A DNA stretch of 64,000 nt from Methanomassiliicoccales archaeon LGM-DZ1 (GTDB lineage Archaea; Thermoplasmatota; Thermoplasmata; Methanomassiliicoccales; Methanomethylophilaceae), in NCBI GenBank assembly GCA_030168595.1, contig CP115556.1, positions 372,001 to 436,000 of the forward strand, given 5' to 3'. Position 1 is the first letter of the stretch, and each line of letters begins with the position of its first letter. Shown one piece after another: positions 398 through 49,371 of this stretch. The position numbers and the translations under genes are program-made. The notes under the pieces are model-generated. The model was not told the DNA's origin. It searched no databases and worked only from the letters and a program-made list of their open reading frames with translations.

Positions 398-1239
398 TGT
401 TCCCATTCCAGAACGAACCTCCTGTGGGGGACTCGGGTTCCCTTCCGGACATAAACACCTCGGAAGCGATACTCTACGGTCCCGCCTACTTCAGGATAAA
501 ATCGATGCAGTGGGCCTGGGACGAGATGGAGGACTACCTCATCAGGAAGGCCGACTCCCTGGAGAGCCAGATCATGGACAGGGAGTGGTGCTATTCCGTC
601 ATGAGGTACAACCGTTACCTCATCTTCGCCCGTTCACCTCCCGTGAACGATGTATCCAAACTCCAGGACCTTTTCACGCTGCGTTCCCTGTGTAAATGTG
701 TTGCCGGTCTGAAGAAGATCGACGAGTACAGGAAGCAGAACAAGGCCTGGGCGAGGATGAAGGGTACCCAGAACTATGTGGAGAACATGAAGGGAAGGGG
801 AATATCCGAAGCGGAATGGAAAGCTGCCACGGCAAGCTACAACAACGAACCCATCACCTATGATTACGTCCACGGCCTCAGACCTTCGATGATCCCGGGA
901 GAGATATTCGACTGGAATGATGCTATGAGGGACCTCATGGGCGGGAAGGAATTCGATTCCCTCGTCTCCAAGATTTTCGGTGTCGATGTCTCCGACGTTC
1001 CTGTGGACGGAGAGGAGAGGGCGGTCACGCCCGAACCTCCCCCGGTACGGGAACAGGGTGACTTCTCCGACCTATCCGAACCTCTGGGTATCATGTTCCC
1101 CGATCCTATCGAAGATGCCAAACAATCCCTCGGGGAACTCACCGACGAATGTTCGGCCTGTGCGGATTACTGGGACATGATGGACATTGACCCAGTACGT
1201 CTGATAGACACTCTCATAGAATACGCGGAGGCGGTATGA
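394..1239 (+). CDS. Hypothetical protein of the ATPase cassette
   Basis: 281 residues starting at an ATG inside the 3' end of the upstream gene (ATGA overlap). No signal peptide or membrane segment is visible. It is rich in aromatic and acidic residues and has an acidic, Pro-rich linker near residues 205-230 (PEPPPVREQGDFSDLSEP) before a short acidic C-terminal domain. I recognise no family. Its place between other unknown proteins and a P-loop ATPase, inside an island with an integrase, suggests a function belonging to the mobile element, such as virion or plasmid maintenance. That is inference. Confidence 0.7.
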   Translation: MMFPFQNEPPVGDSGSLPDINTSEAILYGPAYFRIKSMQWAWDEMEDYLIRKADSLESQIMDREWCYSVMRYNRYLIFARSPPVNDVSKLQDLFTLRSLCKCVAGLKKIDEYRKQNKAWARMKGTQNYVENMKGRGISEAEWKAATASYNNEPITYDYVHGLRPSMIPGEIFDWNDAMRDLMGGKEFDSLVSKIFGVDVSDVPVDGEERAVTPEPPPVREQGDFSDLSEPLGIMFPDPIEDAKQSLGELTDECSACADYWDMMDIDPVRLIDTLIEYAEAV

Positions 1240-1589
1240 TGCAGCGTTTCGTACCCAAGTTCAAGGAAACAATCACGGACATGAACAACGAGTACCGCAA
1301 CCTCCTGCGGGCGTTCAAGGTCAAGGACACGAGGGTGGAATACCTGAACACCTTCGAACAGGCCCTGGCACTGAACTGCAACTTCCCCCTGTGGGAAAAC
1401 GAGCGGTACTTCAGGATAACGAACAAGTATCCCCTTCCCGAGGAAGGATACACCTCCCTAAAGAAGTTCAAGCTGTACCTGATGCTGTACTTCTACGTGA
1501 TGAGGGATGCCGGTCTTCTCAACCGTGAGGCGGAGATGGCCGAACAGGATTGGAACAAGAGAACCGATGCTTTCGGAGGGAGCGCATGA
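1236..1589 (+). CDS. Small hypothetical protein of the ATPase cassette
   Basis: 117 residues, start ATG at 1236 overlapping the upstream TGA. Mostly helical-looking and charged, with several aromatic residues (YLMLYFYVM near residue 83-91). No motif recognised. Its stop overlaps the start of the P-loop ATPase (ATGA at 1586-1589), so the proteins are probably made together and may act in one complex. Confidence 0.65.
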   Translation: MMQRFVPKFKETITDMNNEYRNLLRAFKVKDTRVEYLNTFEQALALNCNFPLWENERYFRITNKYPLPEEGYTSLKKFKLYLMLYFYVMRDAGLLNREAEMAEQDWNKRTDAFGGSA

Positions 1590-2617
1590 AACTGAACAGC
1601 GATTTTATCAATGAATATCTGAAGGGGATCTTCAAGCCCGGTGCGGTATTGGTCTCCTACGGGATGAGGGGAGGGGGCAAGACTCACTGTGCCGTCTCCT
1701 ACTGCCAGAGACTGATAGAAGGATACTACCCGGACTGTCCGAAGCACGTGGTATTGATTACCAACGTGATCTTCGTGAAGAAGTCGAGGAAGGGATTCGT
1801 AACCGAATCCCCGCCGGGCGTGTACACCATCCATTCCATGAAGGAGATATTCCCGATCGTGGTGGAGACCCTGGAGAAATACGGTCGTAAGGACACGATG
1901 ATCGTCCTGCTTCTGGACGAGGCCCAGAACTTCCTTCTCGGAGATATGAACAACGTCGGCGACATGGCATCCTCGATGAAGAAGTTCTGCGGGATTATCA
2001 GGAAATTCAACATGTGCCTGTGGCTTCTTTCCCCGGCCATGAGGAACCTGGGTCCCGCGTTCAGGAACTTCCTGGATGCGGAGAACGATCCGGGTAATGT
2101 CAATTGCACCTTCCAGAAGAACAACGCGGATGCCAAGAGGTTCGTGGATTCCAGGCACTACGACATGGACCCCCGTTCGATAGTGTACGTGAAAGCCGGA
2201 TTCAACGAGCCTACCCAGCTGCTGCCGGTACCGACATCGTCGTGGACGAGGGATCCCGACACGCTGGCCGAAGGGGAATACGCATACGACAACCTGTCCA
2301 GTGCCGATTTCGTCGTGGGAGATTTCCCGTTCCACGAGTTCGTCCAGCACATATCGGGTAAGTCGAGTTACGACATGATCTCCGGGATAAAGGAGTTCTA
2401 CGAAGCTCTTGACAGAGGAGAGATGGAGGACGGCACACCGGTGCAGGATGCGGATAAAATCCGCTACGAGTACGGGAAGATTCTTGCAGTCAGGATGAGG
2501 GTGGAGTACGACGTGCCGAGGGAGACTGTAGCCGCTTTGTTTGGTGTATCCGAGAACACGATCACCAATTGGGTGAACGCCTGGAAGAAATCCCATCAAC
2601 AGGATGAAACGACTTGA
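1586..2617 (+). CDS. P-loop ATPase with C-terminal helix-turn-helix, Zot/packaging-like
   Basis: 343 residues. A Walker A motif (GMRGGGKT, residues 26-33) is followed by a segment like that of Zot-type ATPases (HVVLITNV, about 54-61) and a Walker B motif (MIVLLLDEAQ, about 105-114). The C-terminus has a helix-turn-helix-like stretch (VAALFGVSENTITNWV, about 315-330). The start is ATG 1586 rather than codons further upstream, because it gives an ATGA overlap with the preceding gene and has a purine-rich GGAGGGAG just before it. Proteins of this sort drive DNA packaging, virion export or plasmid processes in mobile elements, but the exact family is uncertain. A hairpin follows the stop. Confidence 0.75.
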   Translation: MKLNSDFINEYLKGIFKPGAVLVSYGMRGGGKTHCAVSYCQRLIEGYYPDCPKHVVLITNVIFVKKSRKGFVTESPPGVYTIHSMKEIFPIVVETLEKYGRKDTMIVLLLDEAQNFLLGDMNNVGDMASSMKKFCGIIRKFNMCLWLLSPAMRNLGPAFRNFLDAENDPGNVNCTFQKNNADAKRFVDSRHYDMDPRSIVYVKAGFNEPTQLLPVPTSSWTRDPDTLAEGEYAYDNLSSADFVVGDFPFHEFVQHISGKSSYDMISGIKEFYEALDRGEMEDGTPVQDADKIRYEYGKILAVRMRVEYDVPRETVAALFGVSENTITNWVNAWKKSHQQDETT

Positions 2618-2623
2618 ACCTGC

Positions 2624-2675
2624 ACGCTGCCCCGTACCCTTCCGTGAAGATCGGACGGGGCGGCGTGTCCTTTTC
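2624..2675 (+). terminator. Hairpin with T-tract after the ATPase cassette
   Basis: Arms at 2624-2635 and 2655-2666 are complementary over 12 positions with one G-U pair, followed at once by TCCTTTT. It sits 7 bases after the stop of the last cassette gene. From here to 2861 I see no credible gene; a short plus-strand frame at 2604-2828 lacks coding character. Confidence 0.5.
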
Positions 2676-2861
2676 ATCGGGTCAAACGGGTGCGGGGGAG
2701 GTCCTGGAAACCCCTCGGAAAGCGGGGGGTGCAAGATAGATATATACGCGCCGCGCGAGGTAGCCGATTTGTTTGTTGTACTTACGTCTGGCCTAATTGA
2801 AAAAGAACAACCGCTAATCAAAGTTTGAATATGTGATCTTAACGTATTTTCTTTAGCAGGA

Positions 2862-3533
2862 TTACGTTTGTTCGCCCAATTGCGAATATTCTGTCTTCAA
2901 TTCGGTAACATCATACCCTTCACATTCGAGATAATCAATCATGGTCTCCGCAACATCTAACGACACTTTCGTTCCGATGCCGCGCATATAGCATCTCGCC
3001 AATTCTGCATTGGCTTCCGGCATATCGTATGCTACCGCCCATAGCGCATCCAATGCCTCCTCGGAGAAGTAATCCAGCTTGGTCTCTTCGTACAGTCTCA
3101 GACAGTTCTTTCCGTAAAACAGATATGCTTCCTCGATTCCGCCGTCCGCAGCCTTGGAGAACCATTTGGCGGCCTTGAAGTAATTCACCTTCCCAAATGC
3201 CCCTGTTTCGTAACATACAGCAAGGTGGAACCGAGCATCGGCACACCCTCTCGATGCAGAAATAAGGATGTGCTCCTCGGCCTTCTCGGATGATCGAGCG
3301 ACCCCGATTCCGTATTCATAAAGAACTCCGAGCAAGAACTTCGCATCGGGGCTGAAGGCGGATTTTCCTTCTATGGTGTGTGCCAGTTCATCATCGGCGA
3401 TGGGTATGGTTTCATCATTGATTCTGTTTTCAACCCATGTTTGGAGGTTCTCTACCGATTGTTCAGGGAATGGATCGGTGAATAAATCATCAGGTATATC
3501 GGTAGTAGAAACGTCTAGGGTGGTTTGTTTCAT
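2862..3533 (-). CDS. Sel1-repeat (TPR-like) protein
   Basis: 223 residues from ATG 3533 (MKQTTLDV); a longer frame exists to 3602 but runs into the promoter. The central part carries Sel1-type repeats: alternating helices with patterns such as AKFLLGVLYEYGIGV, ARFHLAVCYETGAFG and ANAELARCYMRGIGTK, with 36-40 residue spacing. Sel1 repeats are protein-binding scaffolds; no catalytic domain is visible. It is divergently transcribed from the transglutaminase-like gene over a short A+T-rich region, so the two may be co-regulated. Cytosolic by sequence. A larger Sel1 protein is encoded at 37579-39348. Confidence 0.75.
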   Translation of the reverse strand: MKQTTLDVSTTDIPDDLFTDPFPEQSVENLQTWVENRINDETIPIADDELAHTIEGKSAFSPDAKFLLGVLYEYGIGVARSSEKAEEHILISASRGCADARFHLAVCYETGAFGKVNYFKAAKWFSKAADGGIEEAYLFYGKNCLRLYEETKLDYFSEEALDALWAVAYDMPEANAELARCYMRGIGTKVSLDVAETMIDYLECEGYDVTELKTEYSQLGEQT

Positions 3534-3573
3534 CACTATCACATCTATTCGGCATTCGATAGAACTACTACAA

Positions 3574-3599
3574 GCTATAATATTCTGGCTATATAAATT
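3574..3599. promoter_or_regulatory. Divergent A+T-rich promoter region
   Basis: CTATAATATT at 3575-3584 and CTATATAA at 3589-3596 lie between the divergent Sel1 (start 3533, minus) and transglutaminase-like (start 3612, plus) genes. Spacing of about 20-60 bp to each start fits archaeal TATA boxes in both directions. Assignment of each box to one gene is not certain. Confidence 0.45.
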
Positions 3600-3611
3600 C
3601 AAGAAATCGAA

Positions 3612-4457
3612 ATGGCTCTTAATGATTTTAAAATAGGTGCAAATGATACCTTACGTGTGATTGTTAGAAAGCTTCTAAATGCTTTGGATCCAGACATCGA
3701 CGATTCGATTATTTCATCATTCATCCGTTCATCCAACGGCGGGGGGTTGTCCAAAGATGCACTTAGGGTTCTCGATGACCTTTGCTCCAATATCAAAAAC
3801 GGAACTGACCTTGATAAGGAAAAACAAGTCCATGACATAATCATTAAAAATGTCAATTATCGCAATACTGGCAATATGGAAGACCATACTGCCGAAGGAT
3901 TGTTGAAGAATCATTATGGCGTATGCGATGGGATTTCGAATCTTGCCAACGAGATATTCCGGAGAATCGGCATCAAATCATATCTTGCTACAGGAGATTT
4001 ATTGAAAAGTGACGGAACTACAGAACCACACGGGTGGAATATAGTGTGTATTTCCGGGATATGGTTCCATTTAGACATAACTTCAGATCTGGGATTAACA
4101 AGAAACAAAAACAACCTTCGTTATGATTACTTTAACCTCTCCGATAGTGAAATAGGGGTAGATCACAAGAATATTTCTGCAAACGAAAAATGTCTTTTAT
4201 CCAACCGCAGTTACTACAGTGGGCCAGAGTATTACTGCCCCACACTCGATGTCTTTGAACAAAGGTGGAAAAAAATAATCGCTTCTGGAAGAAACTCCAT
4301 TGTTGTAAAATTGCCAGAAACATATGCAAGTGAGGATAAGATTGTAGATGCGATTATTGACCGGGCATTGAAAGTTGCATCTTCTCGCGGAGGATTTTAT
4401 ACTATTCAGTACAGTGTAAATCAGCCTACGGATGTTATAGAAGTTTTTGTCGGATGA
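3612..4457 (+). CDS. Transglutaminase-like cysteine protein
   Basis: 281 residues. The core has the ordered triad of the transglutaminase-like fold: Cys105 in YGVCDGIS, His140 in EPHGWN and Asp155 in WFHLDIT. Family members are peptidases or amide-bond-modifying enzymes, and some are inactive binding modules. No signal peptide is seen, so it should act inside the cell. The N-terminal 80 residues are helical and unrecognised, and the last 70 are a separate small domain. The gene is clearly richer in A+T than the flanking cassettes, a sign of different ancestry. Divergent from the Sel1 gene. Confidence 0.75.
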   Translation: MALNDFKIGANDTLRVIVRKLLNALDPDIDDSIISSFIRSSNGGGLSKDALRVLDDLCSNIKNGTDLDKEKQVHDIIIKNVNYRNTGNMEDHTAEGLLKNHYGVCDGISNLANEIFRRIGIKSYLATGDLLKSDGTTEPHGWNIVCISGIWFHLDITSDLGLTRNKNNLRYDYFNLSDSEIGVDHKNISANEKCLLSNRSYYSGPEYYCPTLDVFEQRWKKIIASGRNSIVVKLPETYASEDKIVDAIIDRALKVASSRGGFYTIQYSVNQPTDVIEVFVG

Positions 4458-4481
4458 ATCATCACCCGACAATATGTAGTT

Positions 4482-6167
4482 TCATATTTTTTCCGGAATC
4501 AAAGCCACGATGATTATAGCTACACATGCGCCGATACAACATATATTGCTGACGGTACTGAGTTCACCATACCACAATAATCCCCCACGTAATACGATTC
4601 CAGCAATAGCTATGATTGCGGCGATAACCCGTTCATCATCACCAATCAAATAAATTGCCGTCAATCCGGGGCCAAAAATAGCAACAATTATCCAAACTAC
4701 AAATTCCCATGTGTTGTAATTATGGGCCAAGTATTCCGTGACGGATGCAGCGATCATCAATCCGATTATTGCAATCAATAACCAACCTAAGATTGCACCG
4801 TAATCGTGATTCAACGGATTCGGGGGAAGAGAAGTGTTCGTAGGCTGTAAAGGAGTTGGTGGCTGTGGGGCAACATAAGCGTTTCTGAACTGAGCCACGA
4901 GTGTTTCATCATTATTGACTGTATGCGTAGCACCCGGTTGTAGTATATTGCCGTTTAAACTCCACCCAGTCAATACCTTCCCCGGCATCGATATTTGAGC
5001 ATCGGTAGGCAATATGATTGTTCCCCCATGTGCTACCGTCTTACTGGAGAGATTGGTATTACCAAATGTGACTGTATGTCTAACAGTGGTCTTGACAATG
5101 GGCGTAGTTTTACTCCTGTATGTTTGTATAGCGGCACAATAAGGGCAGGTGGGCGCACCATTATGTTTCGGCGATCCTTTCCAATATATATGTTCAGGCA
5201 CTTTTTTACACTGGCATATATCATTGGAATATCTTTCAAGAGCATCAATCCACTCCATCGGGGTGGGCCTATCAGGCTTACCTACGGGTTTGCTGAAAGC
5301 ACGATCGAATAATTCCATGATGTAGTCAGGGAAATATTTCGGCTCGGGGGTATAGTACTCGTAAGGTTTGCACCCCGGAGAAAACATATACGCATAATTG
5401 GTCATGTTGTTCTCGACATCTTCGGGGGGTTTTGATACACCTGCGGGTTTGATCTTATGTCTATCGCTGCTGTAGGGGTGCACGGCATTGAACATCAGCT
5501 TGAATATGTGAACCGCCAGTGCGAAATAATCGGTTTGTTTGTCCCACGCAACTTCGAATTGCTTCTGTGCTATGCCTTTAGCTTTATTCGCATTGTATTT
5601 TTCTTTTGCCAACTGAAGTTCGGGGGCTACAAATTCAAGAACCCAGACATTGCAGTCGTATTTCTTACCATTTGCACGGAAAACAAATGAATCATTGTCA
5701 TAGACGCACACACTGCCAGCCTTGGTGCCTGTTTCAAGGAATCCAATGTTTTTAGGATTGAAATCCCCTATGATGTAATTGGCTCTGTGGATATATTCTG
5801 TTACGACACACAAATTATATGCAATCTGAAGAAGCATATCCTGTGGGTATGGGTCACCCATCTCGAACCAATATACCTCACCGAATTCAGTATATTTGGG
5901 GGACTCTTTCATCACATAGCCCTTGAATACACCGTTTGAGTAGATTACGTCAATTGGCCATGTAAGTTTATCCAGAATCTGCTGAGGTGGATTACTGCAC
6001 ATATACCGCAGTTTCTGTTCCAGTTCCGTACCTTTGGTTTTTAAAACGGAATCGTGATATATCTTGATGGCAAGACCGTTTTGAAGATAGACCGATCCCT
6101 CTCCTCCAGTTTTAGGGACTTTTCCATCGGGAACAGTGTATTTACGATTAAGACCGACATACTCCAT
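4482..6167 (-). CDS. Membrane-anchored Ser/Thr protein kinase of a TerY-P triad
   Basis: 561 residues. The N-terminal kinase domain (about 1-310) has a glycine loop (TGGEGSVY, 20-27), the ATP lysine in LAIKIY (K35), a catalytic loop IGDFNPKN (D135, N140), a metal-binding YDNDSF in place of DFG, and APE at 181-183. A Cys pair pattern (CQCKK, CPYCAA, about 316-345) looks like a zinc ribbon. An InlB/Listeria-Bacteroides-type repeat (about 366-430, ending LVAQFRN) and four hydrophobic helices close the protein. The start overlaps the phosphatase stop (TAATG at 6167). Gene order vWA, PP2C, kinase is that of the TerY-P triad; the substrate is unknown. Confidence 0.8.
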   Translation of the reverse strand: MEYVGLNRKYTVPDGKVPKTGGEGSVYLQNGLAIKIYHDSVLKTKGTELEQKLRYMCSNPPQQILDKLTWPIDVIYSNGVFKGYVMKESPKYTEFGEVYWFEMGDPYPQDMLLQIAYNLCVVTEYIHRANYIIGDFNPKNIGFLETGTKAGSVCVYDNDSFVFRANGKKYDCNVWVLEFVAPELQLAKEKYNANKAKGIAQKQFEVAWDKQTDYFALAVHIFKLMFNAVHPYSSDRHKIKPAGVSKPPEDVENNMTNYAYMFSPGCKPYEYYTPEPKYFPDYIMELFDRAFSKPVGKPDRPTPMEWIDALERYSNDICQCKKVPEHIYWKGSPKHNGAPTCPYCAAIQTYRSKTTPIVKTTVRHTVTFGNTNLSSKTVAHGGTIILPTDAQISMPGKVLTGWSLNGNILQPGATHTVNNDETLVAQFRNAYVAPQPPTPLQPTNTSLPPNPLNHDYGAILGWLLIAIIGLMIAASVTEYLAHNYNTWEFVVWIIVAIFGPGLTAIYLIGDDERVIAAIIAIAGIVLRGGLLWYGELSTVSNICCIGACVAIIIVALIPEKI

Positions 6168-8272
6168 TAATGGTCGGCCTCCTGCTCTTCGTTACTGTTC
6201 GCCATTGGCTTATCCGATTCTTTTTTCGAGTCCTTTTGATTCTTGAATAATGCACCCTTCAATTTACTCAATATTCCTCTTTGTGGAACATCGGATTCAC
6301 CGTCATCAGAAGAGGTTTTTTCAGAATCCTCCTTGGGTGCAGGATCGTTTTCATCTACTTTATCCTTAGATGGATCGGCATTATCATTTTCCTCAATGCC
6401 CGCAGATTTATCGCCCTCGGTTGTACAAGAATCTGTTTTATTCGGCATGAGTGTGGGTTCAGAATTGGAACAATTCGATACGGGTTGGCCGATGTCATCT
6501 AAATCACATGTTTCTTTGACCTGTGTTTGAGAGGGTTCAGAACTGTCTTCCGCTTCTCTAGATAAAGATTGCATCTGGGCCTCCGAGGTGTTCTCAACCC
6601 ACAATTCGTATTTGAATTCGTGATTGGATTGTAATTCATTTGCGGATGTTGAAAATGCCAATGCCATCTGAGACTCCGCCCCATACAGGTTGCTAATCTC
6701 ATCGATTGCTGTTTGAATTGAATCAATGTGCTTACCGCCGGTCAGACAGTAGTAGATGGTGTCCATCAGTCCATATCCTGTAAGAGCATTTTCTGATACG
6801 CTTTCATTGATTAGAGCAGATCTTGTGAATCCCGGAGTTGATTTGAAATTTGAGAGTCCTTGGTAATCAACAATGGTGGATAGGACAGTAGATTCTCCAT
6901 CCCTTCTAGCAAAAACATGATATTCATCCGTTTGTGGAATCCAACCTACAAAACTCTCGAATCTTGAGCTACCCGAATATTCTCTGCATCTGCTGATCAA
7001 TGACCGAACTACTGCTACGCGAACATCCAACGTTCTTTTGTATGCAAAGAATTTGGACAATGGGATAGACCCCGTCGGTACTTTGGAAATGAGGGTGAAA
7101 TAATCGCCATCATCGATTGTGTCAATTATTCTTGAAACCCCATCCTGGATCCAACATTCAATTAAACGTTCTAAATGGAATCCCTGTCTTTCAAGGAGTT
7201 CTTTTGGATAAATGGTAGCAACCATATCTCCAGACAATAATTTAATCGAACATCCGTCGGGCAAATCGATTACTTTGTCAACTGCATAGACGTAGTCGGA
7301 TGATTCAATGAGTTCTTTATCTGGATAGAGTTTAGAATAATTGTAAATCATATTCGCTTTCATTAATTTACGGCGCGGAATCGACTCCGAAAATTGTTCG
7401 GATTTCTCCGGAATCGAGTCTTCGAAGAATACAGAAACAACTGTCAGATCATCAACAATCGCACTCCATTCACCACCTACACGTGGGATTTTATCAATTT
7501 TTGATGCGATAAATTTCTGCAAGTTCGCGTCAGAGAAAGGGGTTTGAGTCAAATTAGAATTCGAAGAATCGATATCTTCTGCTTTCTCCTCGAAAATACT
7601 GTAATCCGAAGAACGCATTTTTTGTCCTATCGTATTGATATCTAGATAATCAGACGCCGTTTCATAATCGAAAGCGGTTACTCTGTTCACAGGATCATAG
7701 CGTTCCCAGAATTCCAGATACGAGGGGAATAGGAAATCGTAGAATCCGTCGGTGGCCACTAGTACACTTGAAAAGGTTCCGTTAAACGTTTTGAATTCCC
7801 AACGATCGGTACATTTCAACGTATATACTCTGCCTTCGGAATCGTTCTGTTTTCTACTGAGCAGGACATACGTACCATCTGATTTAAGACCGATTGCTCC
7901 GCTGTCCCCCGAATTTCCGCAATAGACAGCTTCACGGGTTAAAATCGTGGCACATAGTGTACAATCTTCTGTGGGGATGCCCATCTTCTCGAATTCAATC
8001 TTTGTTGCCTCCAGAGCTTCCACAAAAGAATTTTTCAGAAGATCGATTGTGTCGATTTTACCGTAGTTTTCCTTACAATATTCGACACACTTTTCGACAG
8101 CGGCCTTTGACGCATGTTCTGAATGTTTCTGCGAACCTACGCCGTCAGCGACGGCCGCTATCGCAACATCATTGGCCAATTGACCATAGTGCGCGCTGTC
8201 TTGACAAATCGCTTTATCTCCATCTGCGTCTATGTGATATTGACCGACTTCTGAAATGAGAAAATGCCTCAA
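6167..8272 (-). CDS. PP2C-type protein phosphatase of a TerY-P triad
   Basis: 701 residues. A complete PP2C domain covers about 1-275, with metal-binding motifs QDSAHYG, VADGVGS, GNSGDSGA, ATDGFYD and a final IVDDLTVV. PP2C enzymes are Mg/Mn-dependent Ser/Thr phosphatases, here presumably opposing the kinase encoded next. The middle (about 280-580) is an unrecognised globular part. The tail (about 580-701) is acidic, Ser-rich and low complexity, ending in Lys/Glu-rich sequence. It overlaps the kinase start by one base and follows the vWA gene by 51 bp, so the three are one operon. Confidence 0.82.
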   Translation of the reverse strand: MRHFLISEVGQYHIDADGDKAICQDSAHYGQLANDVAIAAVADGVGSQKHSEHASKAAVEKCVEYCKENYGKIDTIDLLKNSFVEALEATKIEFEKMGIPTEDCTLCATILTREAVYCGNSGDSGAIGLKSDGTYVLLSRKQNDSEGRVYTLKCTDRWEFKTFNGTFSSVLVATDGFYDFLFPSYLEFWERYDPVNRVTAFDYETASDYLDINTIGQKMRSSDYSIFEEKAEDIDSSNSNLTQTPFSDANLQKFIASKIDKIPRVGGEWSAIVDDLTVVSVFFEDSIPEKSEQFSESIPRRKLMKANMIYNYSKLYPDKELIESSDYVYAVDKVIDLPDGCSIKLLSGDMVATIYPKELLERQGFHLERLIECWIQDGVSRIIDTIDDGDYFTLISKVPTGSIPLSKFFAYKRTLDVRVAVVRSLISRCREYSGSSRFESFVGWIPQTDEYHVFARRDGESTVLSTIVDYQGLSNFKSTPGFTRSALINESVSENALTGYGLMDTIYYCLTGGKHIDSIQTAIDEISNLYGAESQMALAFSTSANELQSNHEFKYELWVENTSEAQMQSLSREAEDSSEPSQTQVKETCDLDDIGQPVSNCSNSEPTLMPNKTDSCTTEGDKSAGIEENDNADPSKDKVDENDPAPKEDSEKTSSDDGESDVPQRGILSKLKGALFKNQKDSKKESDKPMANSNEEQEADH

Positions 8273-8323
8273 AGTAATCCCTCCGTGTTTTACCTGGCCG
8301 TTATTTCGGCCAGGTAAATGATT

Positions 8324-9040
8324 TCAGGTGGAAACGGTAAACATCTTGAATTTCTCTTCGAGCTTCTTTTCGTGATCCATCTGATCTTCGAGCATCTTCT
8401 TCGCGTTCTCTGCGGGAAGATTGACTTTTTCATTATCAGTAGGCGTGGACAGGACAGCCATACTTTTTCCCCAGAACTCGAAGAATCTCTCGAAGTTCCA
8501 GTCGGGGATGGCCATGGCCATGTCAGTGAATTTCTTGAGTTCGAAATCGTTGTACTGTTCACCCATACCGAGCGCAAGAATGTGGTAGCGACCAGATTCT
8601 TCTAGAGCCCTCATTTCCTTAGCAACAGAATCAACAGGTTTGTCATTGTCCGAATACCCGTCGGTCATGAGGATAATCCATGGTTTTTTGGCTCTGATAT
8701 GGTTGTCATCGTAATGGTGAGAGCGCTCACGAGCCATATCGGAAGCCTTTTTCATAGCATCACGAATGTTTGTGCTACCTCCGACAGCAAGGTTCAAGGG
8801 TTCCATCGCACCGATATTGGTCCATGGGACGACGACGTTTACGTTGTGATCGAAAGCAATTACAGCAAGATCCGCGTTCGCAGATACTGCCCTCTTCTCT
8901 CTTGCGGCTTCAACGAAATTGTTGAAAGACTCACAGAGAGCCTCGATCTGATTACTCATTGAACCAGAGATATCAAGAACAAATACAGTTCCGAATTTCT
9001 GCTGCCCGACAGGGTAGTTCTCTTCTCCTATGTCTGCCAT
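8324..9040 (-). CDS. vWA-domain protein (TerY-like) of a TerY-P triad
   Basis: 238 residues. A von Willebrand A domain with an intact MIDAS metal site: DISGSMS (residues 23-29), a conserved Thr in GGSTNIRDA and LMTDGYSDN. I chose ATG 9040 over the longer frame to 9097 because GGTGA lies six bases upstream. TerY-type vWA proteins bind partners through the metal and act with a PP2C phosphatase and a kinase, linked in bacteria to tellurite/stress (Ter) systems and DNA-processing enzymes. No TerD, TerC or TerZ homologue is visible here. The last 40 residues are a charged helix. Confidence 0.82.
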   Translation of the reverse strand: MADIGEENYPVGQQKFGTVFVLDISGSMSNQIEALCESFNNFVEAAREKRAVSANADLAVIAFDHNVNVVVPWTNIGAMEPLNLAVGGSTNIRDAMKKASDMARERSHHYDDNHIRAKKPWIILMTDGYSDNDKPVDSVAKEMRALEESGRYHILALGMGEQYNDFELKKFTDMAMAIPDWNFERFFEFWGKSMAVLSTPTDNEKVNLPAENAKKMLEDQMDHEKKLEEKFKMFTVST

Positions 9041-9084
9041 TATTTCACCATCATGTGATTTTAAAGGGTTTGAAAGAGGTTTCC

Positions 9085-11187
9085 TCAATATGGCCAACAG
9101 CCATGCATATGGCTATATGTGTCATAATGATAGTTTAGCGCAGTATTTTCAGAGGAAGTTTGGATCACATTGCTAACTGTTGTACCACCATAGGCAACTG
9201 CATCATTCGGAGCGGGGTTTGAACTATCCTCTTCGAATAACCTGTCTTTTACAAAACAGCAGTAAGATACAGAACCCTTGCCAACACTATCATTTCCAAT
9301 GATGCCGCCAGAATCGCTGTAGCGACCATTACATTTTACATAACATTCGGAACAGCAGTATTGTACAACGAATGTTCCATTTCCGCCTTCAGTCCAGCCA
9401 AGAATTCCACCGGCTACAGCACGGTGATTGACAAAGTCGAACCAACCCTCATTACCATACCCGTTGATTGTTCCAGATGCATTACAGTGTGTTACTACCG
9501 CAGTTGTTTTTGAACACCCAATGATGCCTCCTACAAAGGTCCACTCCCCATAGACAGCATCGATTGTGTTGTTCCCCTTACAATCTATAATATTGACAGT
9601 GTTCTGTGAAACAACTCCAACTATTGATCCTGCACAGGTGCGTATTGAATGCCCTCTTTCATCAGTGGTTTTTATTGTTATGCTGGAGATGCAATTTTGT
9701 ATAGTGCCCCCGTGTGATATTCCGGCGACCCCTCCCAGACCTAGCCAATAATCGTTGGTGGAGGTGTTAGCTGAAATGTTGATGTTACCGCTGACTCTGA
9801 TATTATCAATCACGGCTCCGTTTCCGATAACACCGAATAGTCCAACAGCACTTTCTTTATTGATAACAGAAGGAGTGTCAGTGTAAGTGAAAGTTATCTG
9901 ATTGCCTTCTCCAACCAATGTTCCGATAAATGGGCTATTACTGTTACCAATTGGAACGTAGTTGTACGATAGAGAAATAATCTCAGTGTTTGCTAAAACA
10001 TACTTTCCTGATAGGTTGTTGTTGATTTTTGTAAAATCAGACGCAGTGTAAATTCTTGTATAACCCGGGTACAGATCCTCGAATACGGGGTAATATTCTG
10101 CATCACCTGAAACTAATACAGTTTCGGTCAGAATCTCATTTGAATTCTTCGAGGAAGTCCAACCTTTGAGTTTATATGTAGGGTTATAAATGGAAGTTGG
10201 GAAAACAACCGCCCCTCCCTCAGCAAGATTGCTTGTAGAATAAATCTGAGTGCCAGAACTATCTTTGTAGAACTTGATAGTGTGGGTATTGACTGTTGTT
10301 TCTTCGTTAAACTTGTTCAGAGCAGCATTAATCTGCTGGTCTGTTAAAATACAGTACTGGCTTTCAGTTGCGTACTTAAAATCGAATGAAGAACCGTAAT
10401 CAGTTTCAAATACATAATCTCTCAAATTGCTTATATCATATGATATCGCATATTGAACAGGCAGGTCAAGAACATATTTTTGTGTCGACTCGTCATATTT
10501 AAAGTTGACAAGTTCAAACACGTATGCTGTGGTGGTGTATGCCCACGCATAATCTTTGCCCCTCTCTGTGGGAATTTTAACAGACTGGCTATATTCAGAT
10601 GTTTTTGAGAGGTTTTCCGTTATTGACTCTTGATAAGTCGTTGAATCTTCTATAGATTCGATTGCTTTTGTTGTATCCGAATGACTCCATTCGTGGGAAT
10701 ATTGAACACTGATATCAACGAATATTTTGCAAGGAGCACCTGTTCCGATCTCTCCTCCGAGAGAATTAGAATAGCCATCCATATGTTCAGTTTCTGAACC
10801 TTTAGTATGCTGGATGGATTTACTAGTGGATGTTTCAAACGAGGACCCTATAGTCTTTGAATCTGAGGCTGTCAATGTTTTTTCGTATCCATCTCCACCA
10901 GTGTAGCCAATTACTGCATAGACACAGTTTTTAATTTCAGCTATCTGAAATACCATTGTATTTCCGCTGGTCCCTTTCCAGACAGCGTCAATGTTTGAGT
11001 ATGTGACAGGGCTTGACGTCGCACTGGAATTGTAATTGGTTAAAATAGCACCAGAGTACGATGCGATATTCGCAGTCTTAGTTGAGTCTGATTCATCAGA
11101 ATCAATTTGATGATCAAATACGTAATATCCTGCGCTACCGCCTACAACTATCATTACAGCGAGGATGGCTAGTACTTTTGTGTCCAT
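9085..11187 (-). CDS. Secreted/surface GLUG and InlB-repeat protein
   Basis: 700 residues from ATG 11187, preceded by a strong AGGAGGTG site. Residues about 3-24 form a membrane anchor or signal segment (VLAILAVMIVVGGSAGYYVF). The middle is Ser/Thr-rich; an InlB/Listeria-Bacteroides repeat lies near 330-390 (EGGAVVFPT, LKGWTSS), and the C-terminal 280 residues carry GLUG-type beta-helix repeats (GVAGISHGGTIQNC, GGIIGCSKTTAVVTHC). Such proteins face outwards and serve in adhesion. It ends 44 bp before the vWA gene on the same strand, so it may head the kinase/phosphatase operon. The leader holds a G12 and an A9 tract, and the frame is open upstream through both. Confidence 0.8.
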   Translation of the reverse strand: MDTKVLAILAVMIVVGGSAGYYVFDHQIDSDESDSTKTANIASYSGAILTNYNSSATSSPVTYSNIDAVWKGTSGNTMVFQIAEIKNCVYAVIGYTGGDGYEKTLTASDSKTIGSSFETSTSKSIQHTKGSETEHMDGYSNSLGGEIGTGAPCKIFVDISVQYSHEWSHSDTTKAIESIEDSTTYQESITENLSKTSEYSQSVKIPTERGKDYAWAYTTTAYVFELVNFKYDESTQKYVLDLPVQYAISYDISNLRDYVFETDYGSSFDFKYATESQYCILTDQQINAALNKFNEETTVNTHTIKFYKDSSGTQIYSTSNLAEGGAVVFPTSIYNPTYKLKGWTSSKNSNEILTETVLVSGDAEYYPVFEDLYPGYTRIYTASDFTKINNNLSGKYVLANTEIISLSYNYVPIGNSNSPFIGTLVGEGNQITFTYTDTPSVINKESAVGLFGVIGNGAVIDNIRVSGNINISANTSTNDYWLGLGGVAGISHGGTIQNCISSITIKTTDERGHSIRTCAGSIVGVVSQNTVNIIDCKGNNTIDAVYGEWTFVGGIIGCSKTTAVVTHCNASGTINGYGNEGWFDFVNHRAVAGGILGWTEGGNGTFVVQYCCSECYVKCNGRYSDSGGIIGNDSVGKGSVSYCCFVKDRLFEEDSSNPAPNDAVAYGGTTVSNVIQTSSENTALNYHYDTYSHMHGCWPY

Positions 11188-11200
11188 GAGATGCACCTCC

Positions 11201-11270
11201 TTTTTTTTTCGGAACAGGCGCATCGCATCTCGGTCTTGCGGACGATCGTAATTCACGACCCCCCCCCCCC
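11201..11270 (-). repeat. Two homopolymer tracts (A9 and G12) in the leader of the surface-protein gene
   Basis: Read in gene direction: G12 at 11270-11259 and A9 at 11209-11201, the latter just before the ribosome site. An ATG at 11274 opens a frame through both tracts into the surface protein; another ATG at 11223 is followed by the A9 tract. Slippage would change these extended frames and the leader length. Confidence 0.7.
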
Positions 11271-11318
11271 ACATGTTTACGCACGTGAGGGGAGGGCTCG
11301 GGTTGAATTACCTGTACA

Positions 11319-11347
11319 AATCGACGGAAAGGTTTAACGCTATTTTA
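11319..11347 (-). promoter_or_regulatory. Probable promoter of the surface protein, motif shared with the regulator gene at 19465
   Basis: On the minus strand TTAAACCTTTCCGTCGATT (ending at 11319) matches TTATACCTTTCCGTCGATT upstream of the winged-helix gene at 18 of 19 positions; the 15 bases at 11319-11333 are identical to 19479-19493. The left inverted repeat of the IS element begins at 11344 and supplies the TTTAAAAT just upstream. Confidence 0.4.
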
Positions 11348-13060
11348 AACCTCACTTATGCAGATAATTGATAACGAGGTCACAGCAGCGGAAGACCCAG
11401 TTTGGATATGAGTTCCCTCTGTTTCCTCGTGACCTCGTTGAGGCGCCACTCGTCGCCCACCAGGGTTATCCTCAGTTTCCTCATGATCTTCATGAACTTG
11501 GGGATCCACATCTCGTCCGTTATCCCTGCGGTCTTCATCCTGTCCAGAAGAGTTAGTCTCAGTCTCAGGGAAAGGAAGTTCACCAGGAGCCCTCCTTCGG
11601 CGGACTTCTGATCAGATTTCCCTTTGATCCCCATGAACAGGTCCGACTGCAATTGGGAGAAATCGTATTCCACATCGTTCCTCTGCCTGTATTCTATCAT
11701 GAGTTCCTTCCACGGCAGATCGGATGTCGTAAGAACAGCGAACCTTCCGCATCCGTTCTCCTTGGCCGTTATGGCGTTGCGTTTCCTCCGGATATCGTAT
11801 CTCCCGTTTGCATCGGATACCTCCAGCAGATTGTATATCTCGATCTGATTCGCAGACAGTTTCTTCGGCAGGAATGCGTCGTACTTCCTATCCGCCAGGA
11901 AACTCTCCATCTCGCCGATCCTCCTGTATAAGGTAGAGACCTCCGTCTGCCTGCGGGCGTCGTCCTGGAATACCACGGCCCTTATCGTCCCTTTGTCGGG
12001 ATCTATGGAGAACTCCCCCTCCTCCAATACAACCCTGGTCTCGTAACCGCGTACAGAACTGCCCGCCAGATAGTCGGTGTTCAGAGGGGATTCGATATCC
12101 TTCACACTATCGGATATCAGGAGTTTCAGGATGGAGTTCCTGGCCGGTACGGGGACGGTAAATCCCGCACTGCGTTCCATCATCAGTTCCACGTTGCCCG
12201 CGCTGAAGAACCCCCTGTCCATCACCATCTCGAAACCGTCGCAACCCATCCTCTTCAGATCGGCAACGATTATGTCCAGGGTGACCACGTCGGCCACCGA
12301 ACCGGGATAGGTGCGGTAGCAGAAGGGCAGCCCGTCCTCCATCGAATGCACCATACCGAGATTGAACTGCTTCGAACCTGTGAAACGTGCCTTGCGTCCG
12401 GCTTCGGAATACTCCAGACCGTCGGAGTCGGTGCCCATGCACACTATGTCGAAGATCATGCATCCCTTCCCGGGACACAGTTCCGCGAAGAGGTCCTCCC
12501 TCCTGCCGGCATCCTCGCCCACGGTCTGCAGGAACCTGCAGACCTCCGACTGTTCGAAGGACCAATCCATGTCCATCAGTTCGCGCAGGTAGGTGTCCTC
12601 CACCGTCTCCTCCAGGAGGTCCCCGCTGCCCGGGTCGGTGATTCCCAGTATGGCAAGAGCCAGGAGTCTCTTCGCGTTCCTCGCACCGTAGATCTTGGTC
12701 AGCACCTCATCCAGATGCGATTCCCTGGCGAGGTTCCACATGATGTAGTACGGCCCGTAGGACGGACTGCGCACTATGGTCTGCTTCTTCGCGGGCTTCT
12801 TCAGCAGATTGCCTTTCTCGTCGCATGGACCGAGATATCTGCGTTTCTGCTTCGAACATTTCTTCACGGGATCCCATTCCGCAGTGACCTCGTAGAGATA
12901 GTACCTCGTCCCGGTCTTGGTCTTTTGCTGCTGGATCACGTTGTATGACATCGTTAATAGTGATAACGATGTTTATATAAATACCCTTTGCCGGAATCAC
13001 ATGAGCCAGACAATCAGGATCCTGCCTCGTTATCAAAACTCAGCATAGGTGAGGTTTAAA
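11344..13060 (-). mobile_element. IS4/IS1634-like insertion sequence
   Basis: Inverted repeats of 36 bp lie at 11344-11379 and 13025-13060 (about 31 matches; shared core TTTAAACCTCAC and TTGATAACGAGG). They flank a single transposase gene. I could not see a convincing target-site duplication. The element is about 1.72 kb and looks intact. It separates the surface-protein promoter from the zincin cassette. Confidence 0.85.
11380..12951 (-). CDS. IS4/IS1634-like DDE transposase
   Basis: 523 residues filling the insertion sequence. An N-terminal domain (about 1-130) with basic, aromatic sequence is followed by the DDE core: CMIFDIVCMGTDSDG (first Asp, about 166-175), VMDRGFFSAGNV (second Asp, about 243) and a late segment YRQRNDVEYDFSQLQSD with the final acidic residue (about 440-456). 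This is the layout of IS4/IS1634-type enzymes, which cut and paste DNA by hydrolysis at the element ends. A TTTATATAAA-like box (minus strand, near 12970-12980) lies about 25 bp before ATG 12951, as expected for a leaderless transcript. No disruption is seen. Confidence 0.85.
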   Translation of the reverse strand: MSYNVIQQQKTKTGTRYYLYEVTAEWDPVKKCSKQKRRYLGPCDEKGNLLKKPAKKQTIVRSPSYGPYYIMWNLARESHLDEVLTKIYGARNAKRLLALAILGITDPGSGDLLEETVEDTYLRELMDMDWSFEQSEVCRFLQTVGEDAGRREDLFAELCPGKGCMIFDIVCMGTDSDGLEYSEAGRKARFTGSKQFNLGMVHSMEDGLPFCYRTYPGSVADVVTLDIIVADLKRMGCDGFEMVMDRGFFSAGNVELMMERSAGFTVPVPARNSILKLLISDSVKDIESPLNTDYLAGSSVRGYETRVVLEEGEFSIDPDKGTIRAVVFQDDARRQTEVSTLYRRIGEMESFLADRKYDAFLPKKLSANQIEIYNLLEVSDANGRYDIRRKRNAITAKENGCGRFAVLTTSDLPWKELMIEYRQRNDVEYDFSQLQSDLFMGIKGKSDQKSAEGGLLVNFLSLRLRLTLLDRMKTAGITDEMWIPKFMKIMRKLRITLVGDEWRLNEVTRKQRELISKLGLPLL

Positions 13061-13236
13061 CTGTCTAGAAAATCAATCGTGATACTTTCGGTAATCCGTT
13101 ATTCTATCCAAAATGTGACAAATACCAGCCAATATGATAACCCACTAAGTTAGCGACCTCTCCCCTACCATTAAATCTCTGATAAGCGCATAATCAATCG
13201 CAGAAACGACGGGAATCCTCAAGGAAGTGAAAAACC

Positions 13237-13965
13237 ATGAGGAACAGAACAACCGCCGAAGGTGACGTCTTTATCGCCACCTTCAACGAGAAGAACCGCA
13301 CCGTATCCGACGACCACCTTACGATGATTTTCTCAGCCGTCGGAGCAAGACACGGCTACGAGGATGTCGGAGCCGAATTTGCAGCCCTCGAAGATTTCAA
13401 GGTCAGATGGCAGAGATCCTACGACTGGATCCGCTTCACCGTCTCCGACTACCTCGACAGGGCGCCCGACGACGTACTCGCAAGTCTCGCAGAAGTCCTC
13501 TTCACCAAGATCGAGGGCGGGGACAGGGACTACGACGAATGCTTCGTCAAATACATCACATCCCCCGAACTGACGAAAGCCAACAGAAAGGATTTCCTGA
13601 AGAGGAAGAGAGATCTCTCCAAGAAGAGCATCGGGACCTACCACGACCTCAACGACTGCGTCAACCGTCTGAGGGACGAAGGTCTCCTCCCCGACGACAT
13701 GAACTGCGAGCTCCGCTGGCAGGACGGCGGAGGATACAAAGCATCGGGATGTTCCGTCCTCCAGAGGGTGGTCTGGGTCAACAACGTCCTGGACCAGAAG
13801 GGCGTACCCGAACACGTTCTCGATTACTCCGTGTACGCCATGATGTGCCATCTGATCGCCGGATTCGACAACCGCGACGAGTTCGAATACCGCAGGCTCC
13901 TCTCGTTCTACCCCATGAAGAGGGATGCGGAGGACTGGCTCGAACGCGAGGGGCTGTACATCTGA
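13237..13965 (+). CDS. YgjP/SprT-like protein with a lost zinc-protease motif
   Basis: 242 residues. The C-terminal pattern VLDYSVYAMMCHL, then RRLLSFYPMKRDAEDWL, matches the active-site region of YgjP/SprT-like zincins (VxDYVVxHELxHL ... FW..V....P....A..WL). The HExxH positions read A-M-M-C-H, so the catalytic Glu and first His are missing. The N-terminal half (FKVRWQRSYDWIRFTVSDYL) also fits that family. It is probably an inactive binding derivative. First gene of a five-gene cassette, starting at ATG 13237 after GGAAGTG; the next gene starts 4 bp after its stop. Family assignment is mine from pattern only. Confidence 0.6.
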   Translation: MRNRTTAEGDVFIATFNEKNRTVSDDHLTMIFSAVGARHGYEDVGAEFAALEDFKVRWQRSYDWIRFTVSDYLDRAPDDVLASLAEVLFTKIEGGDRDYDECFVKYITSPELTKANRKDFLKRKRDLSKKSIGTYHDLNDCVNRLRDEGLLPDDMNCELRWQDGGGYKASGCSVLQRVVWVNNVLDQKGVPEHVLDYSVYAMMCHLIAGFDNRDEFEYRRLLSFYPMKRDAEDWLEREGLYI

Positions 13966-13969
13966 GACC

Positions 13970-14830
13970 ATGAGACCTATCCGCGGTTCCAACGGGATCC
14001 CCGTCGGAAAGGACGGGAAGGTTCCATTCAAAGCAATCGTCAGAAGATTCCATGAGGTTGGCAGCCGCAAGGATGCCGATTCCACGGATTCCGTAGTACT
14101 GCCGAGGGAACTCACCCCTTCCCAAATCAGGGAATGGTGGGACGATCCCTCCGTGTGCGACATCGAAGGTGTTGATACCGAGGATTCGGACATCTACTCA
14201 GTCCCTATCTCAATCCGCGGGAAGAAAAGAGCGGCACTCTCCAAGATCGCTGTCCTCGCCGACAGGAAGGAGAGCGCACGCATCAAGAAGGTGCTGGCCG
14301 ACTCCTTCACCGCGGACGAACTGGAACTCATAGCCTCCGGAATCCCTCTGATGGTAACCTCCGAGGAACACCTGAGGGACTGTACCGGATTCTATCTCCG
14401 CAGACAGGAAGGGTGCAGCGTCCCCCAGATCGTCCTTGAGAACGGAACCACACCCGACGGCATCGTCCACGAGGCGGTACACCACCTCAGGGCAGTTGAC
14501 GGGAGGACATCCTTCCCCACCAAGGACGGCGTTCTGGATCCTGAATACCGCAGACTGCCCAAGAGCCGGAAGGACACCATCGTTTCCAAAGAGGAGAAGG
14601 AGACCGTCGCCGAGACGGTGGCGAGGACACGCACCGATCCCGTGGAATCCGGATACTACGGCCACGTTCCCGGTTACTCGTCCAGAGGGGCGTATCTGCA
14701 CGATCAGGATGTGCTGAGTAAATCCAAGGCACTGAAGGGCAAGGCTGCCATCAGAGCCGTGGAGGAGAACTACGAGCGTACCTCGATCTCCAGAGCTATC
14801 ATCTCCGCCAACAGGAGGAAGAAACGGTGA
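13970..14830 (+). CDS. Zincin-like metallopeptidase (HEAVH), paralogue of the 15732 gene
   Basis: 286 residues from ATG 13970. A gluzincin-type site is visible: HEAVHHLRAVD (about 167-177) and, about 40 residues later, EEKETVAETVAR, which could supply the third zinc ligand (Glu). A preceding FYLRRQEG...PQIVLENG segment is shared with the protein encoded at 15732-16973, as are TPSQIREWW-like and SGYYG motifs, so the two are diverged paralogues. No signal peptide is seen. The C-terminus is basic and helical. Known zincins with this layout hydrolyse peptide bonds; the substrate cannot be told. Confidence 0.7.
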   Translation: MRPIRGSNGIPVGKDGKVPFKAIVRRFHEVGSRKDADSTDSVVLPRELTPSQIREWWDDPSVCDIEGVDTEDSDIYSVPISIRGKKRAALSKIAVLADRKESARIKKVLADSFTADELELIASGIPLMVTSEEHLRDCTGFYLRRQEGCSVPQIVLENGTTPDGIVHEAVHHLRAVDGRTSFPTKDGVLDPEYRRLPKSRKDTIVSKEEKETVAETVARTRTDPVESGYYGHVPGYSSRGAYLHDQDVLSKSKALKGKAAIRAVEENYERTSISRAIISANRRKKR

Positions 14831-15111
14831 GGAGAAGGGAACGCATCGAGGAGGACCCGACAGGGATACCTCAGGCCGTACGCGATTTCAACGGTCACGA
14901 AGGACCGGCAAGAATCTTCTACAACCGCAATTCCCGGACCTTCTTTGTGCGCACCTATCCCTTCGGCGGGGACAGGTGGTGGGGCGAGATGACGAACGGA
15001 CTGGATGTCGTGGAGCTCTACCGCAAGACCTCCTGCTACCCCGATGTGAAGGTCACCGCCGAGGAACTGAGGATGATGGAATCGGAGATCGGACCGTATT
15101 CGGTGTGGTAA
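14827..15111 (+). CDS. Small hypothetical protein of the zincin cassette
   Basis: 94 residues, starting with GTG 14827 that overlaps the upstream stop (GTGA). Compact and rich in aromatic residues (FFVRTYPFGGDRWWGEM near 38-52), with a charged helix at the C-terminus. No known domain recognised. The overlap indicates coupled translation with the HEAVH protein; a role as partner or inhibitor is only a guess. Confidence 0.65.
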   Translation: MRRRERIEEDPTGIPQAVRDFNGHEGPARIFYNRNSRTFFVRTYPFGGDRWWGEMTNGLDVVELYRKTSCYPDVKVTAEELRMMESEIGPYSVW

Positions 15112-19686: not shown

Positions 19687-19920
19687 ATGAAACGTATAGC
19701 TAAGACGATCTTCCCGGGCAAACTCGCCAGGACGGGGAACACGAAGTACATCTCCGTGCCGACGCAGGTAATCGAGCGCATGGGACTGAAGGAAGGCGAC
19801 TATCTGGATGTCATGATTACCTGGCCCGAGATGCAGGAATACGACGTCGACGAGGTAATGATGCCTGCGGAGACGGATGATAAACCCAAGAGAGGTAGGA
19901 AACCGAAGAACGAAGAATGA
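19687..19920 (+). CDS. AbrB/SpoVT-like DNA-binding protein
   Basis: 77 residues. The core GNTKYISVPTQVIERMGLKEGDYLDVMIT (in two parts, residues 18-46) is the swapped-hairpin AbrB fold found in antitoxins and transition-state regulators. The tail ends in KPKRGRKPK, an AT-hook-like basic stretch that could bind the minor groove. It precedes the recombinase gene by 61 bp on the same strand and probably controls element excision or copy number. ATG 19687 is preceded by GGAGGGATAA. Confidence 0.78.
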   Translation: MKRIAKTIFPGKLARTGNTKYISVPTQVIERMGLKEGDYLDVMITWPEMQEYDVDEVMMPAETDDKPKRGRKPKNEE

Positions 19921-48822: not shown

Positions 48823-49371
48823 ATGGCCAACATGAAGATAGAGAACGTAGTTGCATCCACTTCTCTCGGCCAGGAGATCGATCTGGATAAGATCATGGCA
48901 TCTCTGGACGGTGCCGAATACAACCCCAAGCAGTTCCCCGGGCTCGTCTACAGGCTTAAGAGCCCCAAGACCGCTACTCTACTCTTCCGCAGCGGAAAGA
49001 TCGTCTGCACCGGCGGCAAGAGCAAAGATGAGGTCAAACAGGCCATAACGCAGGTCGCCAAGGACCTCGAGAAGGCCGACATCAAGATCACCATCGAGCC
49101 CAAGATCGAGGTCCAGAACATCGTCGCCTCCTCCGACCTCGGCCAGGAGATCAACCTGAACACCGTCGCCATCACGCTCGGCCTCGAGAAGGTCGAGTAC
49201 GAGCCCGAGCAGTTCCCCGGGCTCGTCTACAGGCTGGACGACCCCAAGGTCGTCGTCCTCCTGTTCGGCTCCGGCAAGATGGTCTGCACCGGTGCCAAGA
49301 TCCCCGAGGATGTCGTCCGCGCGGTCGAGAAGATCGCCGATGAGCTCAGGGACGCAAGCCTGATGTCCTGA
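48823..49371 (+). CDS. tbp: TATA-box-binding protein
   Basis: 182 residues forming the two direct repeats of the TBP saddle: IENVVASTSLGQEIDL with YNPKQFPGLVYRL (about 5-50) and VQNIVASSDLGQEINL with YEPEQFPGLVYRL (about 95-140). TBP binds the TATA box and recruits TFB and RNA polymerase. Archaeal length, with a short acidic tail. The start is set by GGTGA at 48814-48818, four bases upstream; a TTTATAAA box lies at 48783-48790. A terminator follows. Confidence 0.96.
   Translation: MANMKIENVVASTSLGQEIDLDKIMASLDGAEYNPKQFPGLVYRLKSPKTATLLFRSGKIVCTGGKSKDEVKQAITQVAKDLEKADIKITIEPKIEVQNIVASSDLGQEINLNTVAITLGLEKVEYEPEQFPGLVYRLDDPKVVVLLFGSGKMVCTGAKIPEDVVRAVEKIADELRDASLMS

Follow-up and report, generated by a model that had tools for sequence, protein, structure and literature searches.

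A probable archaeal YegL-PphC-YegI kinase/phosphatase switch in a mobile cargo block, next to an adhesin-like gene

A stretch of 64,000 nucleotides from Methanomassiliicoccales archaeon LGM-DZ1 (contig CP115556.1, positions 372,001 to 436,000 of the forward strand), here called the window, encodes a vWA protein, a PP2C-type phosphatase and a membrane kinase, preceded on the same strand by the gene for an adhesin-like protein that is predicted to reach the cell surface. The three genes from vWA to kinase (4482–9040) are probably an archaeal form of the YegL-PphC-YegI membrane kinase/phosphatase switch and form part of a mobile cargo block that also includes the adhesin-like gene. The adhesin-like gene itself is probably just a neighbour of this triad and not its matched partner.

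All four open reading frames (ORFs) were confirmed on the minus strand in the order surface protein, vWA, PP2C, kinase, with gaps of 44 bp and 51 bp and then a one-base overlap, exactly as in the original prediction, which had been made from the sequence alone. Shine-Dalgarno-like sequences support the chosen start codons.

9085–11187, minus strand: surface protein gene; ATG start with GGAGGTG ahead of it
8324–9040, minus strand: gene of the stand-alone vWA protein; Pfam VWA_2, E = 8e-13
6167–8272, minus strand: PP2C gene; TTG start with GGAGGG, 701 residues; Pfam PP2C_2, E = 6.8e-20
4482–6167, minus strand: kinase gene; ATG inside TAATG, 561 residues

Identity of the triad

The vWA protein has a complete MIDAS metal site (D42-S44-S46/T109/D146), and the metal motifs of the PP2C protein are all present (CQDS 23, ADGVGS 42, GDS 122, TDG 174 and DDLT 274), both as originally predicted. 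The Pfam match of the kinase is weak (0.079); its profile and tblastn matches to YegI-type kinases are firm, the tblastn search recovering bacterial triad kinases, with E. coli YegI at E = 6e-16. The alignment retains the catalytic residues: the glycine loop, K35, D135, N140 and D157.

The sequences assign the three genes to the YegL-PphC-YegI branch as a genuine triad, because trees place the window vWA, on a long branch, with YegL and apart from TerY at well-supported splits (99/99 and 100/99), and because the same vWA-PP2C-kinase order occurs in yegL-pphC-yegI of E. coli and in Azospirillum, Granulicella and Trichormus. Rhodococcus has vWA and PP2C genes and, after them, an unannotated ORF that belongs to the YegI-type kinase family. 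The window kinase groups with YegI-type kinases of its own archaeal family, with modest support (82/89).

The module had first been described as a triad of the TerY-P type. A vWA-PP2C-kinase phosphorylation module is real, but the TerY-P label does not fit it. A true TerY-P triad, acting as a Ter-type metal or phage stress switch, would contain the identical three enzyme classes, the Klebsiella TerY-P region does have vWA, PP2C and kinase genes, and the PADLOC TerY model matches the window vWA at E = 9e-4. Such an identity is nevertheless very improbable, since both the vWA and the kinase fall with the YegL and YegI types. The best pairwise matches of the kinase, to YegI-type kinases, have E values of about 1e-24 to 1e-27, against only 5e-6 for the Klebsiella TerY-P kinase, and the window PP2C has no significant pairwise match to the PP2C of the Klebsiella TerY-P region. 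Pairwise scores by themselves do not tell the window vWA apart as YegL or TerY. No Ter gene was recognised beside the triad among the genes examined, which agrees with what had been reported before.

Domains and topology of the kinase

The kinase consists of a catalytic domain, a Cys/His knuckle, a repeat resembling Flg_new and four membrane helices, in that order.

5136–5210, minus strand: Cys/His knuckle C320-H326-C341-C344, invariant with YegI and bacterial triad kinases
4878–5084, minus strand: Flg_new/List_Bact_rpt-like repeat, residues 362–430; PF09479, E = 4.4e-5 when excised
4497–4796, minus strand: four C-terminal membrane helices, residues 458–557; hydropathy peaks 2.3–2.7

The helices had been predicted, correctly, and called unusual, which they are not. 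Membrane helices behind the knuckle are a trait of the YegI-type kinase family, because at least one hydrophobic segment follows the knuckle in most of the YegI-type kinases examined and the membrane location of YegI has been published (PMC13232886). Since the Flg_new-like repeat is placed before the first helix, on the same side as the ATP-dependent domain, it is predicted to be cytosolic.

The mobile cargo block

The triad and the surface gene are part of a block at 2.8–11.3 kb with a GC content of 0.42–0.45 (core part) and a third-codon-position GC content (GC3) of 0.37–0.51, compared to 0.54–0.58 and 0.7–0.8, respectively, in the flanks. The conserved backbone genes of the integrated element on either side (1550–2617 and 13237–13965) are adjacent in two relatives, G011 (locus L083) and G036 (locus L084). 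The interval 2403–13154 is 10.75 kb here; the same interval is 320 bp in one relative and less than 850 bp in another. Because the flanking backbone genes adjoin in those genomes, the block and the insertion sequence (IS) next to it are cargo of an integrated element, and the site between the backbone genes is an insertion hot spot. Besides the triad and the surface gene, the cargo comprises:

2862–3602, minus strand: Sel1-repeat protein gene; Sel1, E = 2.5e-17
3612–4457, plus strand: transglutaminase-like protein gene, convergent with the kinase gene; Transglut_core, E = 4e-11
11348–13056: IS1634-family element with a 6-bp TTTAAA duplication

The IS1634 element, inserted 161 bp upstream of the surface gene, has two further copies in the genome that are 100% identical to it. 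These identical copies and the TTTAAA target duplication are the reason for regarding the insertion, which came later, as recent.

A tyrosine recombinase gene is found at 19877. An attachment-site repeat sought beside it came to a 14-base match only and was not convincing. Upstream of the window are low-GC genes of defence type: an N6_N4 methylase, a UvrD helicase and a PDDEXK nuclease (G000 336–342 kb), and GmrSD (348961–350844); on locus L047, covering G000 336–351 kb, they occupy 791–6305 and 12961–14844. GmrSD and the methylase-UvrD-PDDEXK set are 21–36 kb upstream of the window start and are candidate members of the same element.

Triads in other Thermoplasmatota

A kinase profile was run against 390 genomes of the phylum Thermoplasmatota and 102 of the family, and the loci around good matches were read. 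Matches were found in 16 of the phylum genomes and 12 of the family genomes. About a dozen genomes have triads among the loci read, some TerY-P-like (genus g4) and others YegI-like. At none of the roughly 12 other Thermoplasmatota triad loci was there a Flg/GLUG surface gene, so the expectation that the surface gene and the triad form a conserved four-gene unit was not borne out.

Some of these triads carry other repeats. In genus g6 one kinase has Sel1 repeats, and Sel1 proteins are encoded upstream. The TerY-P-like triads at the g4 loci L037, L098, L099 and L102 have a PP2C with BspA-type LRR_5 repeats, with LRR genes nearby; as probable orthologues, these four loci amount to about one independent case.

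Some of the loci deserve a description of their own. L095 (4678–14504) and L097 (2–4886) of genus g6 are chromosomal operons with the order Sel1-vWA-PP2C-kinase(-kinase with Sel1), in which the YegI-type kinases are in tandem. At L033 (3356–7113), in a Thermoplasmata genome, four tandem YegL-type vWA genes precede one PP2C gene and one membrane kinase gene. The kinase frame at L037 (7521–8459) has one internal TAG, which may be a sign of a broken gene or a read-through codon.

The surface protein and the shared repeat

Five K/R residues come before the N-terminal helix of the surface protein, which also has an orphan Ser/Thr-rich domain, one Flg_new-like repeat and GLUG-like repeats and is predicted to be exported or anchored, adhesin-like and facing outside. 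Its relatives are distant and match in the Flg/GLUG region only, and no close relatives turned up when viral and genome collections were scanned for patterns from the kinase, vWA and surface proteins. An aerolysin-like fold considered for the Ser/Thr-rich region was dropped for want of Pfam, PDB-sequence or usable fold support (model pLDDT 33).

10087–10290, minus strand: surface-protein repeat resembling Flg_new; excised, it matches PF09479 at E = 0.0075

An InlB-type repeat had been reported in both the kinase and the surface protein. The two repeats are indeed homologous (alignment score 60, with 46 the best of 500 shuffles), but they resemble Flg_new/List_Bact_rpt instead, and both are below the curated PF09479 cut-off (23.9 bits in the kinase and 16.8 bits in the surface protein, against 27). 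The GLUG repeats reported in the surface protein are likewise below threshold: GLUG-like stretches were seen in two places (PF07581, 14.9 bits against a cut-off of 20.5, E = 0.04).

Repeats of the Flg_new type are characteristic of gut-dwelling Methanomassiliicoccales (PMC7883539), and both repeats are also homologous to other Flg_new members in this genome. Since there are 39 Flg_new matches in the genome and the two are not mutual best matches (they rank 5th and 2nd of 39), the shared repeat is not specific to the kinase/surface-protein pair. The kinase repeat scores higher with four other units, three of which are in adhesin-like genes at 357–359 kb. Adhesin-like genes are numerous in the genome, some of them ca. 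20 kb upstream.

The original prediction had proposed a membrane-signalling system in which kinase and surface protein share a recognition module. Of this, the membrane-bound kinase module stands. The rest – a four-gene receptor system in which the Flg_new module lets the two proteins recognise a common ligand or one another – would account for the common strand, the 44-bp gap and the homology of the repeats, and it might draw on relatives in which one class of repeat occurs both in a triad protein and in a gene close by (Sel1 at L095 and L097; LRR_5 at L037, L098, L099 and L102). We consider it quite improbable. The kinase repeat is predicted to be cytosolic and that of the surface protein to be outside, so that the copies would be on opposite sides of the membrane; the repeat is common in the genome; and the other archaeal triads lack a Flg/GLUG surface gene. 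The matching of repeat classes in relatives was also set aside as independent support, as it is largely explained by how abundant the repeats are in each genome. LRR-bearing triads occur only in LRR-rich genomes (136–165 matches), whereas the triads of two poorer genomes (47 and 12 matches) are LRR-free, so repeat abundance is the simpler explanation for the sharing.

Transcription of the four genes

The host is an archaeon, as had been predicted, with a TATA-box-binding protein gene at window position 48823. Two short features are found in the gaps between the four genes.

9058–9065, minus strand: TATA-like box TTTAAAAT, in the 44-bp gap upstream of the vWA start
8289–8318, minus strand: perfect hairpin with 12-bp arms and a 6-nt loop, within the 51-bp vWA/PP2C gap

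The TATA-like box matches TTTAWAWA at 7 of 8 positions, a score that about 5% of background windows reach, and is a possible separate promoter for the triad. With up to 3 mismatches allowed, the hairpin (folding z −4.1) has no second occurrence in the genome; it may adjust the ratio of the vWA and PP2C proteins.

These features bear on two further explanations. The triad could act on the surface protein as its output or substrate, with the kinase governing how the protein is exported, how much of it there is or whether it is phosphorylated, and with no role for the shared repeat. In favour of this, the surface gene is adjacent, co-directional and in the same low-GC block. It is unlikely all the same: the surface gene is not conserved with other triads, the TATA-like box could split the transcription units, and adhesin-like genes are abundant in the genome, those ca. 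20 kb upstream included. Alternatively, the block could be inactive cargo whose genes are intact through recency only, cut off from their promoter by the IS1634 insertion. The position of that element in a TTTAAA site 161 bp upstream and its identical copies are compatible with this, but none of the four frames is broken and the catalytic motifs are intact, the element may have landed on the far side of the promoter, and there is a TATA-like box between the surface and vWA genes; this explanation is improbable.

The C-terminal half of the PP2C protein

The PP2C protein has an additional C-terminal half of ca. 400 residues without a family assignment, which had escaped the original prediction.

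6593–7405, minus strand: PP2C C-terminal region, residues 290–560, possibly kinase-like (a lead from a low-confidence model and Foldseek)

A single-sequence model of this half (mean pLDDT 50) has a kinase-like order of helices and strands. In each of two Foldseek libraries its matches are mostly protein kinases (best E = 7e-4 and 3e-4, TM about 0.2), and sequence comparisons with kinases were at chance level. If VATIY is aligned with the family's VAKIY, and VGW with VGD, the protein might be a phosphatase-pseudokinase fusion; this is a lead only. A broader proposal combines it with the repeats: triads in archaea of the Methanomethylophilaceae type would take up the repeat most used by the host (Flg_new, Sel1 or LRR_5), homotypic contacts would tie the kinase or the phosphatase to neighbouring repeat proteins, and the window PP2C would have an inactive kinase-like domain. 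We rate this combination as a long shot.

Comparison with known systems

The triad shares with E. coli YegL-PphC(YegK)-YegI the gene order, the three protein families, the Cys/His knuckle after the kinase domain and the presence of membrane helices. The archaeal kinase has a Flg_new-like repeat and four helices, whereas YegI has two helices and a helix-hairpin-helix; the archaeal PP2C protein differs from PphC by its extra 400-residue C-terminal half, the host is an archaeon, and sequence identity is 27%. In actinobacteria, an active kinase fused to a zinc ribbon and a beta-rich domain, or to transmembrane helices, is found with PP2C and a lone vWA beside GAP1-N2 GTPase systems (PMC7159879); here the beta repeat and the helices are in a single protein, and no GAP1-N2 system was noticed, although no search was aimed at one.

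TerY-P triads (for example in the Klebsiella ter region, and CoCoNuT-associated, PMC11090510) are similar in having vWA, PP2C and a kinase with a C-terminal zinc ribbon. The window differs in the grouping of its vWA and kinase, no Ter gene was recognised among the genes examined, and the TerY-P kinase lacks membrane helices. The closest kinase relatives (32% identity) are in the YegI-type operons of the archaeal family (L095 in genome G457, L096/L097 in G460), which have the same vWA-PP2C-kinase order. Unlike the window, these have a second kinase with Sel1, Sel1 proteins upstream, no membrane helices and no surface gene.

Proposed function

If the triad works as the YegL-PphC-YegI switch does, the kinase would be held in the cytoplasmic membrane by its four C-terminal helices, with the catalytic domain and the repeat in the cytosol. 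E. coli PphC dephosphorylates membrane-bound YegI (PMC13232886). By analogy with that pair, the archaeal kinase would phosphorylate itself and its targets, and the PP2C protein would take the phosphates off again. The vWA protein, through its MIDAS, may act as an adaptor, recruiting a ligand or target to the kinase/PP2C pair. The module is accessory cargo of the integrated element, most likely for a response to stress or conflict or of the envelope. The adhesin-like gene arrived in the same block and may be co-transcribed, probably as a neighbour and not as a conserved component.

Several points weigh against this account. The window proteins are only 23–32% identical to any relative, and the long window branches leave the exact place within the YegI-type set unsure. 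The 44-bp spacing between the surface and vWA genes is compatible with joint and with separate transcription, and the only ground for a stress or defence purpose is the mobile context, with GmrSD and the methylase-UvrD-PDDEXK set upstream.

Implications

These results correct the view that kinase and surface protein are matched as a receptor pair, and the YegL-PphC-YegI kinase-phosphatase-vWA switch is, in all probability, extended to an archaeon of gut type, as mobile cargo. Archaeal triads differ mainly in the repeat module that they carry, and thus offer a natural series for finding out what the C-terminal modules select.

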